From Bacteroidota bacterium (lineage in GTDB: Bacteria > Bacteroidota > Bacteroidia > UKL13-3): DNA of 64,000 nucleotides. The position numbers and the translations under genes are program-made. Location: assembly GCA_947464275.1 (NCBI GenBank), contig CANHVU010000005.1, forward strand, positions 1 through 64,000, in the 5' to 3' direction. Below, piece by piece: positions 1 through 61,195 of this stretch (position 1 is the first letter of the stretch; each line of letters starts with the position of its first letter). A model generated the notes under the pieces. That model was not told the DNA's origin, did not search any database, and saw only the letters and a program-made list of their open reading frames with translations.

Positions 1-1391
1 GAAATGTAAACTTGGTAAATGGTTTAAATATTACTGGTGCAACAACCGATACTTTGAGATTTAATGCAACTACCATTTTAGATACTGCCACCAATTATAA
101 TGTAATCATATCGAGCACTTGTTCTTTAAGAGATACATCTGCTATTGTTTCATTGAACATCAATTTGCCTTTGTCAATCAACATCAACCCTAGTAACCAA
201 ACAGTTTGTTTAGGAAGCCCAGCAAGATTTATAACCAAAGCAACTGGTTCGGGATTGACTTACCAATGGCGTAGAGGAAATGTAAACTTAGTAAATGGCT
301 TGAATATATCAGGTGTAACAACCGATACCTTAAGATTTAACAGCACAACTATTTTAGATACTGCTACTAATTATAATGTAATCATTTCAAGTACTTGTTC
401 TTTAAGAGATACATCCGCTAATGTTTCATTAAACATCAATTTGCCTTTGGCAATAACAATCAATCCAAGTAACCAAACAGCTTGTTTAGGAAACTCAGCA
501 AGATTTATAACCAAAGCAACAGGTTCAGGATTAACCTACCAATGGCGCAGAGGAAATGTAAACTTGGTAAATGGTTTAAATATTACTGGTGCAACAACCG
601 ATACTTTGAGATTTAATGCAACTACCATTTTAGATACTGCCACCAATTATAATGTAATCATATCGAGCACTTGTTCTTTAAAAGATACATCTGCAAATGT
701 TTCATTGAACATCAATTTGCCTCTGGCAATCAGCATCAATCCAAGTAACCAAACAGTTTGTTTAGGAAGCTCAGCTCGTTTTGTAACCAAAGCAAGCGGT
801 TCAGGATTATCCTATCAATGGCGCAAAGGAAATGTAAACTTAGTAAATGGCTTGAATATATCAGGTGTAACAACCGATACTTTGAGATTTAACAGCACCA
901 GCATTTTAGATACTGCTACCAATTACAATGTAATCATTTCAAGCACTTGTTCTTTAAGAGATACTTCAGCAAATGTTTCATTAAATATCAATTTGCCTTT
1001 GGCAATCAATATCAATCCAAGTAACCAAACAGTTTGTTTAGGAAGCTCAGCAAGATTTATAACTAGAGCTACTGGTTCAGGATTAACTTACCAATGGCGC
1101 AGAGGAAATGTAAACTTAGTAAATGGTGTAAATATAACTGGTGTTACAACCGATACTTTAAGATTTAATAACACAACCATTTTAGATACTGCTGACAATT
1201 ACAATGTAATCATTTCAAGTACTTGTTCTATAAGAGATACTTCTGCTAATGTTTCATTGAATATAAGTACTCCTCCAATCATTATTACAGAACCAACTAA
1301 TCAAACAGCATGCGCAGGAAGTTCTGTTAGTTTTACTGCAGTAGTATCAGGAAATGGCATCACTTACCAATGGCGTAAAGGCAATGTTAAC
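1..1391 (+). repeat. Tandem 276-bp coding repeats with 552-bp higher-order period
   Basis: The same codons recur at 12, 288, 564, 840, 1116 and 1392, a strict 276-bp (92-codon) period with no indels. Units 1 and 3 (starting at 1 and 553) are identical over about 130 bases. Units 2 and 4 (277 and 829) share other variants, such as GGCTTGAATATATCAGG against GGTTTAAATATTACTGG. This A-B-A-B pattern points to duplication of a two-unit block. The units after 1392 are more diverged. Confidence 0.92.
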
Positions 1392-12173: not shown

Positions 12174-12179
12174 TTATTT

Positions 12180-12392
12180 GGAGATTGGTTGATTTAGAGA
12201 TTGGGAGATTGGTTTCACGCCTTGCGTGATTTAATTGTTGGATTGTTAAATTGTTTAATTTTTAAATTGCTTAATTGTTTGATTATTTTTGCTTATTGCT
12301 TATTGCTAATTGCTAATTGCATATTGCATATTGCTTATTGTCTATTGCCCATTGCTAAAAGCCAGATGCCAATTGCTAGAAGTCAGTTGCCA
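12180..12392. repeat. Low-complexity ATTGCnn/GAGATTGG repeat tract
   Basis: After the PPK2 gene comes a tract of degenerate short repeats. GAGATTGG-like units lie at 12181-12213, then ATTGTT/ATTGCT units, then a dense array of about 7-bp ATTGCTA/ATTGCAT/ATTGCTT units between 12289 and 12379. It runs to within 14 bp of the nnrD start. Frames through it (12201-12422 and the 5' extension of nnrD from 12310) encode only LLIAYCILLIAYC-like repeats and are not genes. Confidence 0.8.
12215..12229. repeat. TCACGC-ctt-GCGTGA inverted repeat, copy 2
   Basis: Identical to 5270-5284 over all 15 bases; embedded in the low-complexity tract between PPK2 and nnrD. Confidence 0.6.
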
Positions 12393-12405
12393 AATAATTC
12401 ATCAC

Positions 12406-34017: not shown

Positions 34018-35412
34018 TCAATATGCATTATCATCGCCAACTAGGGTAAGCATAAACGTTTTGAACATAATATCAATATCGTGCCAAATAGACCAATTTT
34101 TAATGTATTGAAGATCGTATTTCACCCTAATTTCCATCATTTTATGGTCTAAATTTCCTCTTAATCCATTTATTTGAGCCCAACCGCTGATACCTGGTTT
34201 TATAAAATGCCTTTGCATATAAAATTCAACAATATCTCCATATTGTTTTGTATGATTTAACATATGAGGGCGTGGTCCTATTACACTCATTTGACCGAAA
34301 AACACATTAAAAAATTGTGGTAATTCATCTAGGTTAGATTTCCGCAAAAACTTACCAATTTTGGTAAACCTGTAATCATGCTTTTCTGCTTGTTTGGTAT
34401 CTTGAATATCGTTTGGAATCATGGTTCTAAACTTCAAACAAGTAAATGAAACATTTTTTCTTCCACTTCTCAGTTGTTTAAATAAAACTGGTCCTTTAGA
34501 ATCAAGTTTAATTAAAAGTGCTATTATTGGATAAAGCCAACTTAATACAAAAACAATAACTATTGAACTTATTATTAAATCAAATATTCGTTTTCTAATT
34601 CTATTATCTAATTCCTCTAATGGCTCTTTGGTGTAATCAACAACTAAGGTTTCAGATTTTACAATAATTTTAAATTGATTGGTTAATACCATGTCAAATT
34701 CAGGTGTAAATTTAAACCTTATAAATTCTTTTTCGGCCATATTCACTATCTTCAAATGCATAGCATCATCTAATGGCATTGCGATTGAAAAAATTTCTGA
34801 AATATTGTTTCTTTTTGCAGTAAGTATAGCTTCTTCAAAAATTTCTAGGGTGATATTTTTATTATTTACTTTTGGAAGAACTGGAATTAATTTATAACCA
34901 GAATCTTCCGATTTTAAATATTCAAAAAGTTTTGGATAAATTTCACCATCACCCAAAATAGCAACCCTTTTTCTTAAGTGAATAATATTATCAAGTTTGT
35001 TTAAATAATAACTTGTTAAATACCTTGAAATTGGCAAGTAGATAAAGGAACAAAAAAAATATAAATATATAAAAAAGCTGTTTATATGTATGGAATTAAG
35101 AAATAAAAGCGAGAATGATAAAAGGATTAATAAATGAAAAAAGAAGAGTTTAAATGATGATTTCAAATTATAAATTATTTGAAAATTTTTTTCATATGTT
35201 TTAAAAAAATAAGAAAGTACAATCCAAGTAATATTATGACTTATAATTAGGTATTTTAAATGAATATCACTGACAATATTGAGTTCAAATGGTTCATTTA
35301 AAACATATGTTAGTAATAAAATTATACTATTTAATCCAATTAAATCAAACAATAAAATAAAAACACGCAATAAGAAGATATAAAGTGAATTCTTATGAAA
35401 TCTTTTTCCCAT
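34018..35412 (-). CDS. WcaJ-like undecaprenyl-phosphate sugar phosphotransferase
   Basis: A 464-residue membrane enzyme. The N-terminus has about four membrane segments (FILLFDLIGLNSIILLLTYVL and following), the middle a nucleotide-binding-like domain (VAILGDGEIYPKLFEYLK), and a fifth segment precedes the catalytic bacterial-sugar-transferase domain (KGPVLFKQLRSGRKNVSFTCLKFRTM, RKSNLDELPQFFNVFFGQMSVIGPRPHM, GISGWAQINGLRG). It transfers a sugar phosphate to the lipid carrier, the first step of polysaccharide assembly. It is the last gene of the locus in transcription order and thus far from wza. The sugar is probably glucose or galactose by family precedent, not by sequence proof. Confidence 0.93.
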   Translation of the reverse strand: MGKRFHKNSLYIFLLRVFILLFDLIGLNSIILLLTYVLNEPFELNIVSDIHLKYLIISHNITWIVLSYFFKTYEKNFQIIYNLKSSFKLFFFHLLILLSFSLLFLNSIHINSFFIYLYFFCSFIYLPISRYLTSYYLNKLDNIIHLRKRVAILGDGEIYPKLFEYLKSEDSGYKLIPVLPKVNNKNITLEIFEEAILTAKRNNISEIFSIAMPLDDAMHLKIVNMAEKEFIRFKFTPEFDMVLTNQFKIIVKSETLVVDYTKEPLEELDNRIRKRIFDLIISSIVIVFVLSWLYPIIALLIKLDSKGPVLFKQLRSGRKNVSFTCLKFRTMIPNDIQDTKQAEKHDYRFTKIGKFLRKSNLDELPQFFNVFFGQMSVIGPRPHMLNHTKQYGDIVEFYMQRHFIKPGISGWAQINGLRGNLDHKMMEIRVKYDLQYIKNWSIWHDIDIMFKTFMLTLVGDDNAY

Positions 35413-42524: not shown

Positions 42525-43817
42525 TTATTCAGTTTGTTCGTACTTAAATGATGCTATTAAAAGTCCACAAACCAAAACACAAAATCCTAATGAAGTTGGT
42601 TGAGACCAACCTCCTTGCGGTAAAATAAAAAGGGTAAATGATAATAATATCCAAGGTAGGATATCATTTATTTTCAAATATTGCCAAGCCCAAGAAGTAA
42701 GTTTTACTGTCATTAACAACCTGATTAAAATGATGGCTATGCCAAGTATAGGGCCTAATTCCCCAATTAGTCTTCCCCATTCTCCTTCTGAAATAAGGAA
42801 GGCTCTTTTATTGGTTAAAATACTACTCCCAACATTAGTTCCGTAGCCCAAACCATAACCTAAAAATGGTTGGTTGGTTGATGAACTCAAAGCATTTATC
42901 AAACCTCCTAAATACCTATCAAGAAAAACTGATTCAATACCACCTTCAGCAGTATTGGCTCTTTCTAAGCGAGTAGTAAAAGCCTCAAATCCTATTGAAA
43001 AGATATCGAATAAACTCAATAATAGCGCTAATGCAGAAAAACCTAAAACCATGGTGATTCCCTTATTACTATTTTGTTTAATAATATTTGCTCCAATTAT
43101 GGTAAATCCAAAACTTATCATTATTTGAAACAGTAAACTTCTACTAATTGAAAACGGAATGGAGGCGAGCAATGCAGCTGTGGCCAATGATAAAATAACT
43201 CTGTTTATTTTTTTTGATTCAATCCAAAAGTAAAAAACAAATACTGCAACCAAACTAAAAAAAGAGGTGGTTCCACTCGTAAACGAAAATGTTCCTGGTG
43301 GTCTTAAGTAGCCCATCGCTCCGCTAAATCCACCACCAATCGCATCACCTATACCTTTGTTTACCCAAGCAGTTTGAGGACTGAAAAACTGAACAGCAAT
43401 TAACAAAGCCATTGGAATAGAAATATATAAAAATACTTTTCCCATTTTTATAACATCTTCTTTGTTAAAAACTGTACCAATTAAAAAGATCATTGGAAAA
43501 TGAATTATAAAAATTCGAGCACCATACAATGCCACAATAATATTACCGTGGCCGGTTACCATGGTTGCAATAAAACTAACCGAAACAATACTTAACATAT
43601 AGAAGATATAACTATTAAAGTATACAACTCTGTTAAAGCTTGCCGAAAAGAACAAATAAAGAACCAATGGATCTCTTATTAATAACAACGGATTTGCTAA
43701 TTGGGGCAATATCCATTTTCGTAATGCTCCTTCAAATATTAATAAAATAAAGTATAACCAAATTCCATTTCTTAAATTGGTCAAACTGTCATTTTTATTT
43801 AAATTGTGCTGATTCAA
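42525..43817 (-). CDS. O-antigen polymerase/ligase-like polytopic membrane protein (Wzy-like)
   Basis: A 430-residue membrane protein with about ten helices and a large periplasmic loop. It shows FEGALRKWILP near the N-terminus, RPPGTFSFTSGTTSFFSL, RLERANTAEGGIESVFLDRYLGGLINAL and FLGYGLGYGTNVG. Such proteins belong to the O-antigen ligase/polymerase superfamily and may polymerise repeats or ligate chains. The start is TTG 43817; no ATG or GTG is available. It sits between an acyltransferase-3 gene and a GT4 gene. Confidence 0.8.
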   Translation of the reverse strand: MNQHNLNKNDSLTNLRNGIWLYFILLIFEGALRKWILPQLANPLLLIRDPLVLYLFFSASFNRVVYFNSYIFYMLSIVSVSFIATMVTGHGNIIVALYGARIFIIHFPMIFLIGTVFNKEDVIKMGKVFLYISIPMALLIAVQFFSPQTAWVNKGIGDAIGGGFSGAMGYLRPPGTFSFTSGTTSFFSLVAVFVFYFWIESKKINRVILSLATAALLASIPFSISRSLLFQIMISFGFTIIGANIIKQNSNKGITMVLGFSALALLLSLFDIFSIGFEAFTTRLERANTAEGGIESVFLDRYLGGLINALSSSTNQPFLGYGLGYGTNVGSSILTNKRAFLISEGEWGRLIGELGPILGIAIILIRLLMTVKLTSWAWQYLKINDILPWILLSFTLFILPQGGWSQPTSLGFCVLVCGLLIASFKYEQTE

Positions 43818-55946: not shown

Positions 55947-57197
55947 TTATAAATAAGTAAAATCAAGGTAAAAGCTACCTTGTCCAGTTGGTAAAGTATG
56001 CACTAACTCACCAAAATAACTGTCACTTTCAATTGAAAATGGTAATGCGTCAATAACCCAATCGTGAATTTGTCCACCTGAGGCAACAAAAACTGTAATG
56101 GTATATTTACCTATGGCTAATGGCAAATGATTAATCATTATTTTCTGGCTCCAATTACCATTTGTTAATGGATGTAAAGTTTGGCCAGAAACTTTATTAC
56201 TAATTAATGTTATACGATTCCCATATTGGTCGCTGATGCCTAGCGAAATTTCTAAGTTGCTGCTAATTTTAAATTGGTTGGAAGCTAATTCTACATCAAA
56301 AATTAATTGCATTCCTGCATATAGATTATTGGTAATTTTTTCTGTTTTTTTATCAATAAAATGAATATTCATAACCTTTACCTTTCCATCACCTTTTCTA
56401 TCTGTTCTATCCACTAATGATATCTTATTTTCTTTATTTTGCATGTAGTTATTTATCATTTCATGAACATTGCCAAATCCTTGCATGGTTCCTTTATTAA
56501 GTAATAATGCCTTAGAACATAAACTTTGAATGGATTGCATATTATGGCTCACAAAAAGTACTGTTCTCCCCTGCCCTTTGCTAATGCTTCCCATTTTACC
56601 TAAACACTTTTTTTGAAAATCAGCATCACCAACGGCAAGCACTTCATCTACTATCAGAATTTCAGATTCCAAATGTGCTGCAACTGCAAATGCTAGCCTT
56701 ACATACATGCCAGATGAATATCTTTTAACAGGTGTGTCTAAATAACTTTCAACACCACTAAAATCAACAATTTCATCAAAGTTCTTTTTTATTTCATGGC
56801 GTTTCATTCCAAGTATTGCGCCATTTAAATATATATTCTCTCTGCCAGAAAGTTCAGGATGAAAACCTGTACCAACTTCCAATAAACTTGCTATACGGCC
56901 ATTTCCTTTTATAGCTCCTTTAGTAGGTGTTGTTACCCTACTTAGTATTTTTAACAAGGTACTTTTACCAGCTCCATTTTTTCCAATAATACCAAGAGCT
57001 TCGCCTTGTTTCAGTTCAAAATTTATATCTTTCAAACTCCAAACTAAATTCGCATCTTGCTTCAGTGCTAACTGTTTTTTGGGATTAAATATGGAAACGA
57101 TTTTCTGTTCTATATCTCTTGAAAGTGTTCCAGTACTAATAGCACCTTTTATGTACGATTTTGAAACGTTTTCTACTTTAATGGCCGTGTTTGTCAT
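55947..57197 (-). CDS. wzt: Polysaccharide ABC exporter ATPase (Wzt) with C-terminal sugar-binding domain
   Basis: A 416-residue protein. The N-terminal ~245 residues form the ATPase: Walker A GKNGAGKSTLLKILS, LEVGTGFHPELSGRENIYLNGAILG, signature YSSGMYVRLAFAVAAHL, Walker B ILIVDEVLAVGD and SHNMQSIQ. From about residue 255 to the end comes a beta-sandwich (VMNIHFIDKKTEKITNNLYAGMQLIFDVE, LEISLGISDQYGNRITLIS), the Wzt_C type that recognises the chain terminus. Exports polymer with Wzm, whose gene is 3 bp upstream. Confidence 0.94.
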   Translation of the reverse strand: MTNTAIKVENVSKSYIKGAISTGTLSRDIEQKIVSIFNPKKQLALKQDANLVWSLKDINFELKQGEALGIIGKNGAGKSTLLKILSRVTTPTKGAIKGNGRIASLLEVGTGFHPELSGRENIYLNGAILGMKRHEIKKNFDEIVDFSGVESYLDTPVKRYSSGMYVRLAFAVAAHLESEILIVDEVLAVGDADFQKKCLGKMGSISKGQGRTVLFVSHNMQSIQSLCSKALLLNKGTMQGFGNVHEMINNYMQNKENKISLVDRTDRKGDGKVKVMNIHFIDKKTEKITNNLYAGMQLIFDVELASNQFKISSNLEISLGISDQYGNRITLISNKVSGQTLHPLTNGNWSQKIMINHLPLAIGKYTITVFVASGGQIHDWVIDALPFSIESDSYFGELVHTLPTGQGSFYLDFTYL

Positions 57198-57200
57198 TGT

Positions 57201-58046
57201 TTAAATAGTATCAATAAAGTTTTTTTCAACCCTATTGAACAAAATTATTCCAAGTAAAAAAATGATAATGGTGGCTATTGAAGTATATAAAATAGCTGTT
57301 ATTGAAAATGTGCCTTGACCTAAAAACGCGTATCTAAATGTTTCTAAAATAGTAGTCATAGGATTGAGTTCAATTAAAAACTTAAAATTATAGGGTGCTG
57401 CCGAAAGTGGGTATGTTACAGTTGTGCTAAACATTAATAATTGAACTCCAAAATTTACCAATAATGCTAAATCGCGGTACTTTGTGGTTAATGATGAAAT
57501 AATTAATCCTAATCCTTGTCCTAATGCAGCCATTAAAATAAGTAAGTATGGAATCAATAAAATGGCTATTGATAAATGAATTTGAAAACCTTTAAATGAA
57601 TAAATAATAAGTATAACTATGAATAGAAATAATTGAATAAAAAACCTAATCATACTTGAAAAAACAATACTCATGGGTAAAATTATTCTTGGGAAATAAA
57701 CTTTGCTAAACAAATTAGCATTATCTCTAAACACAGTTGAGTTTTTTAAAATACATTCAGCAAAATAATTCCAACATATAATTCCTGGTAAATAAAATAA
57801 GGGTTTAGGTAAATTATTGGTTGAAATATTTCCTATTTTTCCAAATACAAACGAAAATACTATCATGGTTAAAATAGGTTGAATAAAAAACCAAAGAGGT
57901 CCAAGAATAGTTTGTTTATAAAAAGCTATAAAGTCGCGTTTAATGAGTAAAAAGAACAAATCTTTATATTCCCACGTATTCACTAAATCAAGTTTAAACC
58001 AAGGGTTTTCCGATTTAATTGTCCAATCGTATTTTGGTTGTTCCAT
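57201..58046 (-). CDS. wzm: Polysaccharide ABC exporter permease (Wzm)
   Basis: A 281-residue ABC-2-type permease: LFFLLIKRDFIAFYKQTILGPLWFFIQPILTMIVFSFVFG at the N-terminus, PLFYLPGIICWNYFAECILKNSTVFRDNANLFSKVYFPRIILPMSIVFSSM and six likely helices. It forms the transmembrane channel through which Wzt drives a polysaccharide. It sits between wzc-like and wzt genes with 3-bp gaps. No TagG/TagH features of wall acid exporters beyond the common fold. Confidence 0.94.
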   Translation of the reverse strand: MEQPKYDWTIKSENPWFKLDLVNTWEYKDLFFLLIKRDFIAFYKQTILGPLWFFIQPILTMIVFSFVFGKIGNISTNNLPKPLFYLPGIICWNYFAECILKNSTVFRDNANLFSKVYFPRIILPMSIVFSSMIRFFIQLFLFIVILIIYSFKGFQIHLSIAILLIPYLLILMAALGQGLGLIISSLTTKYRDLALLVNFGVQLLMFSTTVTYPLSAAPYNFKFLIELNPMTTILETFRYAFLGQGTFSITAILYTSIATIIIFLLGIILFNRVEKNFIDTI

Positions 58047-58049
58047 TAT

Positions 58050-60446
58050 CTAATTGTGTTTTACAAATTTTGAAACAATTTTTTTAAAGAAAGATTTAGT
58101 TTCCTTTTTATCATCTGTGTAAGTATTACCGTATCCATAACTGTAACCATATCCGTAACCATATCCATAGCCGTAATTGTAGTTATAATTACCTACTCCA
58201 CGTTTTTTTATACCATTATAAATTAAGTTTATATTATTCAATTCATTGTTGGTATAGAATTTTTGAATCATTTTCAAGAAGTATTTTAAAGTGTAACTAT
58301 GGCGCAACACATACAAACAAATATTTGAATACTTATTAAGCAGCTTGGCATCGGTTACCAGCCCAATTGGAGGCGAATCAATTACAATATAATCAAATTG
58401 TTTTTTCAACTCGTTCATAAGTTCATCTAATTTTCCATTTAAAATGAGTTCAGTTGGATTTGGAGGAACTGTTCCTGCAGGAATTACGTATAATGAATCA
58501 AAGTCATCAACCTTTATTATTATATCGTCAATATTTATTTTATTTAATAAATAATTGGTTATTCCTGGCTCGCGCTGAACGTTTAATAAAATGTTGATTT
58601 TAGGCTTTCTTAAATCAAGCTCCATAATGGCAACTTTTTTTCCTGAAAGGGCTAAACTGTTTGCTAAGTTTACCGATAAAAAACTCTTTCCTTCACCTGA
58701 AATGGAGGAAGTAAATAATATTGTTTTACAACCTTCAATATGATATAATTTCTCCTGAACTGCCGTTCTTAAGGATCGTAATTGCTCTGCAATAATGGAA
58801 CGGTTATGGTGTTTTATAGCTATTGGGTCTTTATTTTCATTAAAGTTAATTTCAGCAATTACCTCAGCCGATGTTTCTTCTTCAATTTGTGACCTGAAAA
58901 TTATTTTATTATTCAAATCTTCTTTTATGAAAATATAAACTATAACAATAACAATTGATAATGAGATGGCAATTAAATAAATGGTTAATGGAATTGGTTT
59001 AATAGGCACATTACCGGCTTGTGCATTATCTAATATGATACCATCCGAAACTGTTGCAGCAAAAGAAAGCTCTGCCTCTTCTTTGGTTTGAAGTAAGAAG
59101 GTGTAAATATTGTTTTTAATAGTTTGTTGTCGGGTTAAATCAAATAACTCACGTTCAAAAAAAGGAATTTTAAACAACTCAAGTTTTACTTTTTCAAGTT
59201 CAAAATTCAATTTATTTTCTTTAATGATTAAGTTATTGTTGATGGTTTTTATATTATCATTTATGTCAAGTTTAGTTCTATTAATTTTATTCTGAACAGC
59301 TATCATCGATTGTGTATTTTGTCCACCTTTGATTTCTAATTGCGTTTTTTGTGATTCTAACTCTATTAATTTAGCCAATAAATTTAGTAAAACAGGGTCT
59401 GAAATATCGTTGGTAGCAGGCACCAAACCAGGACCATTATTTTTATTGCTTATGTAATTTTGGATGGAAAGAAGTATTTCCTTTTGGATTTGAACATTGG
59501 ATAAGTTTTTATAAATATCATTGGTCAAAGTTAAAATTGCTGAACCAGTACTTGATAAATCACTTATACCATTATTCGACTTAAATGATTCAATTTCTTT
59601 TTCAATAAGCTTTAGGTCGTTGTTCACTAACTTTATTCTGCCGTTAATAAAGTTAATAGTATTCAACGATTTTTGATTTTTGTTTTCAATAACGGCTTGG
59701 TTATAAACTTTAATAATGGTATTTAATATTTTTTCCGAACGTAAAGCTACCGGGTCGGTAAGTTTTAATAAAATAGTACTTGCCTCTTTCGAATTTGGAG
59801 TAACTCTTAATCTGCTTAGTATTTGTGAAGATACTTGCTTAATAGTTAAAATTTTAAAGTAAAAATTACTGCTTTGAGCTAAATCTTGTCCTTTATTATT
59901 GATATGAAATATTAGTTTTCCATAAGGTGTTTTAACATTGGTATCTAACAAATACTTTACATCATTTACTATTATATAATTTTCGTTTTTATGATAATAA
60001 AATCCAATTTCTTCAATGTGTTCTTTCAATAAATCAGGTTCAGGCGAAGTAATGGTTAAAGGTGAATTATTATAAGATAAAATATCTCTAAACTTCCCTT
60101 CAAAATAGATAGGTATGTATAAATTTAATTCTTTAACTACATCGTTTATTACTTTACTTGATTTAATTAATTCAATTTCGTTTTCAACAGAAGTATTTTC
60201 ATCCATATTTACCAATTCATCAAGTACTTTGGTTTCAACCTTGCTTGCTTGTTGGTTTTTTAGTAAAATTTGAGCTGTGGCTTCAAATACGGGCGTTTGA
60301 AGTTTTAAAAATAACCATGCGCATAGAATCGAAATTATAAATGATAAAATAAATAATGGCCAAAATGGAACAAATCTATAGATAATATTATTCAAAATAT
60401 TACCAGTTTTTTTACCTTCAAAAGGATTATTCAACTCTTTAATCAT
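58050..60446 (-). CDS. wzc: Wzc-like polysaccharide co-polymerase / tyrosine autokinase
   Basis: A 798-residue protein. The N-terminal membrane segment (FWPLFILSFIISILCAWLFLKL) opens a Wzz domain, a long coiled-coil periplasmic part leads to a second membrane segment (IPLTIYLIAISLSIVIVIVYIF), and a cytoplasmic BY-kinase domain follows with Walker A SSISGEGKSFLSVNLA, Walker A' AIMELDLRKPK and Walker B YIVIDSPPIGLVTD. Residues about 752-776 hold 11 tyrosines in a near-perfect Gly-Tyr alternation. Such tails are phosphorylated in Wzc to control chain length. It sits between wza and wzm with 11 and 3 bp gaps. Confidence 0.95.
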   Translation of the reverse strand: MIKELNNPFEGKKTGNILNNIIYRFVPFWPLFILSFIISILCAWLFLKLQTPVFEATAQILLKNQQASKVETKVLDELVNMDENTSVENEIELIKSSKVINDVVKELNLYIPIYFEGKFRDILSYNNSPLTITSPEPDLLKEHIEEIGFYYHKNENYIIVNDVKYLLDTNVKTPYGKLIFHINNKGQDLAQSSNFYFKILTIKQVSSQILSRLRVTPNSKEASTILLKLTDPVALRSEKILNTIIKVYNQAVIENKNQKSLNTINFINGRIKLVNNDLKLIEKEIESFKSNNGISDLSSTGSAILTLTNDIYKNLSNVQIQKEILLSIQNYISNKNNGPGLVPATNDISDPVLLNLLAKLIELESQKTQLEIKGGQNTQSMIAVQNKINRTKLDINDNIKTINNNLIIKENKLNFELEKVKLELFKIPFFERELFDLTRQQTIKNNIYTFLLQTKEEAELSFAATVSDGIILDNAQAGNVPIKPIPLTIYLIAISLSIVIVIVYIFIKEDLNNKIIFRSQIEEETSAEVIAEINFNENKDPIAIKHHNRSIIAEQLRSLRTAVQEKLYHIEGCKTILFTSSISGEGKSFLSVNLANSLALSGKKVAIMELDLRKPKINILLNVQREPGITNYLLNKINIDDIIIKVDDFDSLYVIPAGTVPPNPTELILNGKLDELMNELKKQFDYIVIDSPPIGLVTDAKLLNKYSNICLYVLRHSYTLKYFLKMIQKFYTNNELNNINLIYNGIKKRGVGNYNYNYGYGYGYGYGYSYGYGNTYTDDKKETKSFFKKIVSKFVKHN
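58119..58187 (-). repeat. Gly-Tyr codon repeat coding the Wzc tail
   Basis: On the minus strand this stretch is a run of TAT/TAC and GGT/GGA codons, with CCATATCCG-like units on the plus strand repeating every 6-12 bases. It encodes alternating Tyr with Asn or Gly (11 Tyr in 23 residues). Simple-sequence character makes length change by slippage possible. Confidence 0.8.
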
Positions 60447-60457
60447 GTTTATCTTTA

Positions 60458-61195
60458 TTACCTGTTGAAGCTTAAAATTAAAACGGTTAGTGTTAAAATT
60501 CCTGTTGCAAATCCTAAAATTGATCGGCTTTGGCTTGCATTGAATGCCCTGATGGCATTAGGTTCAACGTAAATAATATCTCTGTTTTGTAAATTAAAAT
60601 AATAAGGATCAAACATTACCGAATCATTAAGACTAAATCTTTTAAATGTTCTCACACCATTCTGTTCGCGTATTAACAAAATGTTATTCCTTTTGGCAAA
60701 TACAGTTAAATCACCTGACAGACCCAAAAGTTCAGGAAGTGTAATTTGTTCTTCTGGTATGTTAACCAATCCTGGTTTATTTACTTCTCCAAGTATGGTA
60801 ACATGAAAATTCAATACTTTTACTGTTGCTAAAGGGTTTTTAGCAATTTTCTTTTCTATCAATGATGTTTCTATCTTAGTTTTTAAAGATTCTTTGTTTA
60901 ACTCTGTAACTTTTATCTTTCCTATAAAAGGAAAATCAATCATACCTTGATTATCTATTTTATATGAACCATTTGTATTTAAAGTGTTAACTTGTATTTG
61001 TGTTTGGTCGTCTAAATTCCCTAGTAATATTTGTAAAATATCCGATTTGTCAATCAAATTTGAGTCGACCAAATAATTAATTTTTATTTGTTCTTCTTTT
61101 TTAACCTGCTGAAAACTTGAAATTTCCTTATTACTAAAACAAGATGAGAAAATGATTATTAAGAAAATGGAAATACTTAAATTACTGAATTTCAT
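60458..61195 (-). CDS. wza: Wza-like polysaccharide export lipoprotein
   Basis: A 245-residue protein with a lipobox (IIIFSSC, Cys about 19). The Poly_export domain begins YLVDSNLIDKSDILQILLGN and shows YKIDNQGMIDFPFIGKIKVTELNKESLKTKIE. An SLBB-like domain follows (VTILGEVNKPGLVNIPEEQITLPELLGLSGDLT), then a C-terminal membrane helix (SILGFATGILTLTVLILSF). It is shorter than E. coli Wza (379), as usual in Bacteroidota. It forms the outer-membrane or periplasmic exit. It is the first gene of the locus, with 520 bp of leader before it. Confidence 0.92.
   Translation of the reverse strand: MKFSNLSISIFLIIIFSSCFSNKEISSFQQVKKEEQIKINYLVDSNLIDKSDILQILLGNLDDQTQIQVNTLNTNGSYKIDNQGMIDFPFIGKIKVTELNKESLKTKIETSLIEKKIAKNPLATVKVLNFHVTILGEVNKPGLVNIPEEQITLPELLGLSGDLTVFAKRNNILLIREQNGVRTFKRFSLNDSVMFDPYYFNLQNRDIIYVEPNAIRAFNASQSRSILGFATGILTLTVLILSFNR

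Follow-up and report, generated by a model that had tools for sequence, protein, structure and literature searches.

In the Wzc-type bacterial tyrosine kinase (BY-kinase) of Escherichia coli K30, the tyrosine-rich C-terminal tail of each subunit enters the active site of its neighbour, where binding of tyrosine i places tyrosine i-2 in a pocket (PMC11986026, PMC8285477). A ratchet along the YxY motif, running from the C to the N terminus and ending in loss of the octamer after four phosphates, has been proposed for this protein, whose own ladder of alternating tyrosines is broken at N711; a tyrosine at this position (N711Y) gives an ordered tail and, in a phosphomimetic background, brought capsule back (PMC11986026). 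A recombinant fragment of Ptk1 from Porphyromonas gingivalis was phosphorylated at Y775, Y782, Y784, Y786, Y788 and Y790, the last five of which follow one another in +2 steps (PMC6759763). Here we describe a kinase of this type with a long, unbroken ladder, encoded in a 64,000-nucleotide stretch of contig CANHVU010000005.1 (GenBank assembly GCA_947464275.1) of a Bacteroidota bacterium, hereafter the window. Because its spacing is that of the published Wzc ratchet, the tail is best read, by analogy and with better than even confidence, as an extended trans-autophosphorylation track, of a kind common in kinases of the class Bacteroidia.

The window kinase shares with K30 Wzc (Protein Data Bank (PDB) code 7nhr; PMC8285477, PMC11986026) a Wzz-type periplasmic part, two transmembrane (TM) segments, a BY-kinase domain and the YxY spacing, and the two tails begin at the same aligned position (Y706 in E. 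coli, Y754 here). Whereas the E. coli ladder is short and interrupted, that of the window kinase has 10 unbroken rungs followed by an acidic-basic C terminus; in the window kinase P536 and E675 are replaced, and wzm- and wzt-like genes lie next to its gene. The features of the gene are as follows.

58050..60446, reverse strand: Wzc-type tyrosine autokinase (polysaccharide co-polymerase class PCP-2a), 798 amino acids; from Pfam, TIGR01007, a PDB match and two predicted TM segments
58683..58697, reverse strand: Walker A, GEGKS, residues 584-588; the K540-equivalent Lys (K587 here) is found in 138/138 surveyed kinases
58608..58622, reverse strand: Walker A', ELDLR, residues 609-613; the D564-equivalent Asp is found in 138/138
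58368..58391, reverse strand: Walker B, YIVIDSPP, residues 686-693, from sequence; the P645-equivalent Pro is found in 138/138
58119..58187, reverse strand: tyrosine ladder YNYNYGYGYGYGYGYSYGYGNTY, residues 754-776; from translation, codon table and chance tests
58143..58166, reverse strand: perfect tandem part of the ladder, 12-bp unit GGATATGGTTAC twice, residues 761-768; from the codon table, Tandem Repeats Finder (TRF) and a repeat search
58053..58115, reverse strand: post-ladder segment DDKKETKSFFKKIVSKFVKHN, residues 778-798, a short acidic patch and then a basic-hydrophobic end; from translation

An earlier note on this DNA had called the product a Wzc-like kinase, and the domain evidence bears this out for a tyrosine autokinase: the protein contains the Pfam domains Wzz, GNVR and AAA_31, passes the TIGR01007 model (138.9 bits; cut-off 108.05) and has E. 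coli Wzc as its best solved-structure match (7nhr, E 5.6e-43), with the Wzz/GNVR region and the two predicted TM segments on one chain with the kinase domain. It falls well short of the E. coli Wzc equivalog NF008568, scoring 190.8 bits where the curated value is 1068. The Walker Lys, Asp and Pro (K540, D564 and P645 equivalents) are invariant across the survey of 138 kinases described below; the first Asp of Walker A' (D562 equivalent) is Glu in the window kinase and Asp in 69/138.

Translation confirms exactly the earlier count of 11 tyrosines in the 23 residues encoded at 58119-58187. Ten of them lie at exact two-residue spacing and thus form a 10-rung YxY ladder of the E. coli type (residues 754-772), to which Y776 is added. 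The spacers are, in order, N, N, G, G, G, G, G, S and G, followed by G-N-T ahead of the last tyrosine, so that the alternation with Gly or Asn is not strict, contrary to the earlier note, owing to the single Ser and to the closing G-N-T. Such an arrangement is far from chance expectation: 5000 shuffles of the whole protein gave at most 8 tyrosines per 23 residues and ladders of at most 4 rungs, and permuting the 23 residues alone gave a ladder of at least 10 rungs in 7 of 200000 trials. The kinase tail is also the only place in a six-frame scan of the window with a YxY ladder of at least 5 rungs.

The segment that follows the ladder recurs in part among relatives: of 71 kinases with ladders of at least 5 rungs, 49 have the acidic patch and 43 the basic end. 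A structure model of very low confidence places a helix at residues 780-794 (block predicted local distance difference test (pLDDT) 33-34). A C-terminal amphipathic helix behind the ladder was considered as a separate candidate and set aside as weak (hydrophobic moment of the last 16 residues, mean z 0.67 over shuffles, 53 tails).

We hypothesize that the window kinase would work much like its E. coli counterpart. In the unphosphorylated octameric ring, the tail of each subunit would lie in the active site of its neighbour, while the tyrosine two positions upstream would be poised for use; each phosphorylation would move the tail on by a two-residue step, with phosphates building up until the ring loosens, after which phosphatases would reset it. 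Ten rungs would then offer more steps, or more redundancy, than the E. coli ladder with its interruption at N711, and in-frame indels between internal repeats would alter the length of the ladder while leaving frame and register intact. That phosphorylation along the track is ordered, or at least partly ordered, we regard as moderately probable. The earlier proposal that these tyrosines are phosphorylation sites is plausible by analogy with Ptk1, in which all six mapped sites carried phosphate (PMC6759763). Both types of phosphatase are present in the genome: genome-wide searches returned a single low-molecular-weight protein tyrosine phosphatase (C11:44442-44882) and a single CpsB/CapC phosphatase (C1:25119-25721); the contigs of the genome's two kinases (C5, that of the window, and C16) carry neither of them.

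To place the tail among its relatives, we compiled 138 distinct Bacteroidota BY-kinases from 140 ORFs (open reading frames) matched by a kinase-domain query, after removing one duplicate and one unrelated protein. The sources were overlapping searches of 58, 10, 64 and 198 genomes, one of which supplied 90 places among the matches listed (30 as loci and 60 more), together with a scan for named relatives that gave 3 loci, of which L036, without a tyrosine tail, was left out of the counts (loci are numbered L001 onwards); 45 short-alignment matches are included. The survey divides into 74 kinases of the same class, Bacteroidia, and 63 of other classes, with L035 in neither. In this sample, which is enriched for near relatives, same-class ladders span 2 to 14 rungs, with at least 5 rungs in 62/74, at least 10 in 27/74 and a median of 8. 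In the other classes, ladders reach at least 5 rungs in 9/63 and at least 10 in 1/63, with a median of 4. The steps between successive tyrosines follow the same division, +2 making up 70% of 851 steps in the same class and 32% of 517 in the others, where +1 accounts for 41%. The enrichment is marked: 47 of the 74 same-class kinases came from the similarity search with the window kinase and have a median ladder of 10, against a median of 6 for the 27 found by family model, only 2 of which have at least 10 rungs. The window tail is therefore ordinary among its near kin and in the upper range of its class. Its description as hyper-expanded applies relative to E. coli (K30 tail, YYRYGHNHYGYSY) and to most comparators outside the phylum, not to many near relatives within Bacteroidota, and the idea that it is exceptional for its group is not supported.

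A second type of tail, with adjacent rather than alternating tyrosines (for example, YGSYYKYYYYYS), recurs in several of L053-L082, which belong to other classes of the phylum. The tails of L014 and L026 have 23-26 tyrosines and contain long GYGGYGGYGG arrays besides YxY stretches. Short frames of 263-266 amino acids, 37-47% identical to the window kinase domain, occur in three other genomes (G021:C17:4687-5433, G017:C30:46-657 and G046:C141:6682-7443) and possibly represent a Bacteroidota version of the kinase-only (PCP-2b-like) architecture, or are artefacts of contig edges. On plasmids, we compared 16 kinases hand-picked from the 60 listed of 319 plasmid records. Thirteen of the 14 from outside Bacteroidota have ladders of 1 to 4 rungs, the remaining one, from Cereibacter, having 7; the two from Bacteroidota are a Bacteroides kinase with 8 rungs and a Spirosoma kinase with 2 rungs and 5 tyrosines. 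Searches of the open-licence PMC literature, only some of them directed at this point, yielded no description of long Gly-Tyr ladders in Bacteroidota BY-kinases in the text covered, which is weak evidence of absence.

Three further systems come close to the window kinase. Ptk1 is likewise a Bacteroidota BY-kinase with a +2-step tyrosine cluster (Y782-Y790), encoded in a genome that has both low-molecular-weight and PHP phosphatases (PMC6759763, PMC8863745); its mapped sites are fewer, and the phosphatase gene php1 lies next to it, whereas the window kinase has no linked phosphatase gene. The pMMCAT plasmid kinase of Bacteroides and Parabacteroides (WP_008782414.1) shares the Wza-kinase gene order and has a ladder of 8 rungs, but its spacers are of the form RYGYRYGY, a CpsB/CapC phosphatase gene is adjacent, and no Wzm or Wzt was among the 6 features seen. 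The genome's other BY-kinase (G000:C16, L002) also has a YG ladder of 10 rungs, with 16 tyrosines in the tail slice compared with 12 in the window kinase; it belongs to another subfamily (32% identity), its ladder is preceded by YGYGYGNG, and its flank contains no Wzm or Wzt match.

Several observations weigh against a track that works as in E. coli. The tyrosine pocket of the E. coli enzyme (A534-P536, P645-L647, E675 and S679) is preserved only in part in the window kinase: P645 and I646 are kept, whereas A534 is replaced by Ser, S535 by Ile, P536 by Ser583, L647 by Gly and S679 by Ile. E675 corresponds to an aromatic residue, Phe (the neighbouring Tyr in the 7nhr alignment), and the charge exclusion proposed for E675 therefore cannot act in the same way. 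Across the survey, the P536 equivalent is Pro in 37/138 kinases and the E675 equivalent is Glu in 12/138. Because P536 and E675 are not conserved, we can only infer stepwise feeding of the tail in the window kinase from E. coli; an effect on export in the source organism, or of the tail on chain length, would similarly follow by analogy with other bacteria. Strict C-to-N order is doubtful even in E. coli, as mass spectrometry of K-12 Wzc found 43 combinations of sites, with Y705 the commonest single site (PMC12881504). Twelve of the 74 same-class kinases fall below 5 rungs, and the Spirosoma plasmid kinase, whose domain is the closest to that of the window among the listed plasmid records (45% identity), has 2. 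A structure prediction from 3 sequences (predicted template-modelling score 0.30, mean pLDDT 47) is too poor to bear on the tail. Finally, given the ATP-binding cassette (ABC) exporter genes beside the kinase (see below), the regulated target may be something other than a Wzy polymerase. Of the K701-D28 coupling ion pair of the E. coli ratchet, K701 aligns with Arg749, which keeps the charge, and D28 aligns with Pro27 (7nhr alignment).

The strongest competitor to an ordered track, which we consider possible although clearly the less likely of the two, is a bulk-charge threshold, in which the phosphosites of a disordered tail serve as a reservoir filled in no set order, the total of phosphate decides the state of the ring, and regular spacing is a by-product of a flexible Gly-Tyr composition. 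According to a review, the switch depends on the overall level of phosphorylation rather than on particular residues, and tyrosines are poorly conserved in both number and arrangement (PMC12220298); the 43 site combinations of K-12 Wzc fit the same picture, as do the many tails of other classes that are of the YYKYYYYY type with ladders of 2 to 4. Against it, +2 is by far the commonest step in same-class tails and is kept while codons change, and N711Y in E. coli links +2 spacing to ordering of the tail (PMC11986026). Under either reading, ordered track or total charge, the tail is one of autophosphorylation.

A neutral low-complexity expansion, in which the ladder is functionless beyond one or a few used tyrosines, has in its favour that ladder length varies greatly among related kinases, from 5 to 14 rungs in one genus. 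The codons argue otherwise. The closest relative, L005, has a tail of the same length, and its tail codons show 4 synonymous and 0 nonsynonymous differences from those of the window, although the gene body is 92.8% identical in DNA (7.2% divergence); compared with L006 (78% protein identity), there are 11 synonymous changes and 1 other. Because almost all tail changes are synonymous (4/4 and 11/12 differing codons), the ladder is held by selection at the protein level, and this, with the ladders of at least 5 rungs in most same-class kinases (62/74), makes neutral expansion improbable.

The earlier note had gone further, proposing that the tail is coded by a slippage-prone simple-sequence repeat and that changes in the number of tyrosines could tune chain length or export. 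As a contingency locus of this kind, slipping often enough for the number to differ among colonies or isolates, the tail seems very improbable. In favour is a pair of kinases paralogous to that of the window, L037 and L039, from two species of the window's genus, which are 97.2% identical in DNA upstream of the tail and are set apart by a single 60-bp indel: aligned with one gap, they show at best 2 mismatches in 144 bases, with 18 bp of repeat at the indel ends, and the tails, with 17 and 8 tyrosines in the slice, remain in frame and in register. Because L027, L030, L038 and L040 of the same genus have long tails, L039 is most simply read as the deleted form. These length-variant genomes are drafts in which misassembly is possible; a repeat of 18 bp is shorter than usual assembly words, so collapse during assembly is unlikely. 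L041 and L043, 94.6% identical over 350 protein residues, have 14 and 9 rungs and tails that differ by 14 residues, without a single clean gap and with 14 further mismatches, and L007 (75% protein identity) has one rung more than the window.

Contingency loci, by contrast, typically have many perfect copies of a short unit, and the window tail has just two perfect 12-bp copies in an otherwise imperfect repeat (TRF, 3.2 copies of a 12-bp unit at 84% and 3.0 copies of an 18-bp unit at 75%) with mixed codons (TAT 5 and TAC 6; GGT 4, GGA 4 and GGC 1), so that the simple-sequence repeat of the earlier note is not what we find. Nor is there support for variation among isolates: L005 keeps the length of the window tail, with only the synonymous changes given above, and the tail of the pMMCAT-type plasmid kinase, from Bacteroidales, does not change across 20 of 21 records, of which 19 agree fully over 560 bp and one, at 99.8% identity, has the same protein accession; the 21st, at 90.3% identity, has the same 8-rung ladder when counted by eye. 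The 20 plasmids are nearly clonal and therefore weak evidence against slippage in general. Ladder length drifts between species, at least partly by in-frame indels between internal repeats; of the proposal that slippage changes the number of tyrosines, this repeat-bounded change between close species stands, its rate is unproven, and rapid length switching is unsupported.

We also compared synonymous-codon identity with shuffles in 58 pooled tails with ladders of at least 7 rungs. Identity was in excess at a lag of 3 units (18 bp; z 3.7), lay below the shuffle expectation at lag 1 (z -2.0), which counts against frequent slippage, and ranged from z -0.7 to 1.2 at lags 2, 4, 5 and 6; the window tail alone had no excess at lags 1 to 5. 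As these statistics ignore the kinship of the sequences, we set them aside as proof of slippage. Elsewhere in the window, nested tandem repeats (7, 8, 16, 21 and 24 bp, including TTGCTTA x 9.7) at 12176-12393 lie between two ORFs and extend into the second; this array is closer to a slippage-prone one than is the tyrosine tail. A 276-bp tandem repeat (window 1-1261, 4.6 copies at 86%) lies within an ORF that is cut off by the start of the window.

Because the spacers Asn, Gly and Ser are those of the designed peptides NYNYNYN, GYGYGYG and SYSYSYS, which form amyloid-like fibrils (PMC10510724, PMC11093263), the tail could conceivably be a phosphorylation-gated prion-like segment, with unphosphorylated tails pairing as cross-beta ladders between rings and clustering exporters, autophosphorylation dissolving the clusters and ladder length setting cohesion, but we give this little credence.

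The kinase gene is flanked by a Wza-like gene on one side and by Wzm-like and Wzt-like genes on the other (55947-61195), in a cluster with glycosyl-, pyruvyl-, acyl- and methyltransferase genes and an initiating sugar transferase (34018-35412).

60458..61195, reverse strand: Wza-like outer-membrane export protein (Poly_export, SLBB), from Pfam; in 9/10 orthologous loci, the tenth, L043, beginning at a contig edge
57201..58046, reverse strand: Wzm-like ABC-2 permease, from Pfam; in 10/10 orthologous loci
55947..57197, reverse strand: Wzt-like ATPase with a Wzt C-terminal domain, from Pfam; in 10/10 orthologous loci
42525..43817, reverse strand: protein of 430 amino acids with 9 TM segments, without a Pfam or NCBIfam match; candidate polymerase or ligase of the cluster

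No Pfam or NCBIfam model matches the last of these proteins at E values up to 0.1; its GYGLGYGTN loop is reminiscent of O-antigen ligase and polymerase proteins. All ten kinases at least 47% identical to that of the window over the match (L001, L005-L009 and L041-L044) share their locus with homologues of both Wzm and Wzt. When the check was widened to loci L001-L052, L145 and L147, mostly with some 1.5 kb of flanking sequence, Wzm/Wzt occurred outside the ten orthologues only at L019 and L020, besides L034, a named copy of L005. In a review, PCP-2 proteins that bear a kinase are placed with Wzy-dependent capsule systems, and PCP-3 proteins mainly with those that depend on ABC transporters (PMC12220298); a Wzm/Wzt partner is unusual for this kinase class. 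Among the 31 window proteins scanned, Wzx and Wzy had no Pfam match; Wzy_C matches occur six times elsewhere in the genome, one of them on the same contig (C5:125665), outside the window. This member of a known kinase family combines a long ladder with an unusual exporter partner.

The presence of Wzm and Wzt beside the kinase in all ten orthologues raises the question of what the kinase acts on under ABC-dependent export. It is not settled whether Wzc-type kinases work by ordered counting of phosphates or by total charge, and a single short, broken ladder is what E. coli K30 provides. The graded ladders described here, from 2 to 14 rungs, together with the L037 and L039 pair that differs by a clean indel, offer natural length variants for tests of ring lifetime.

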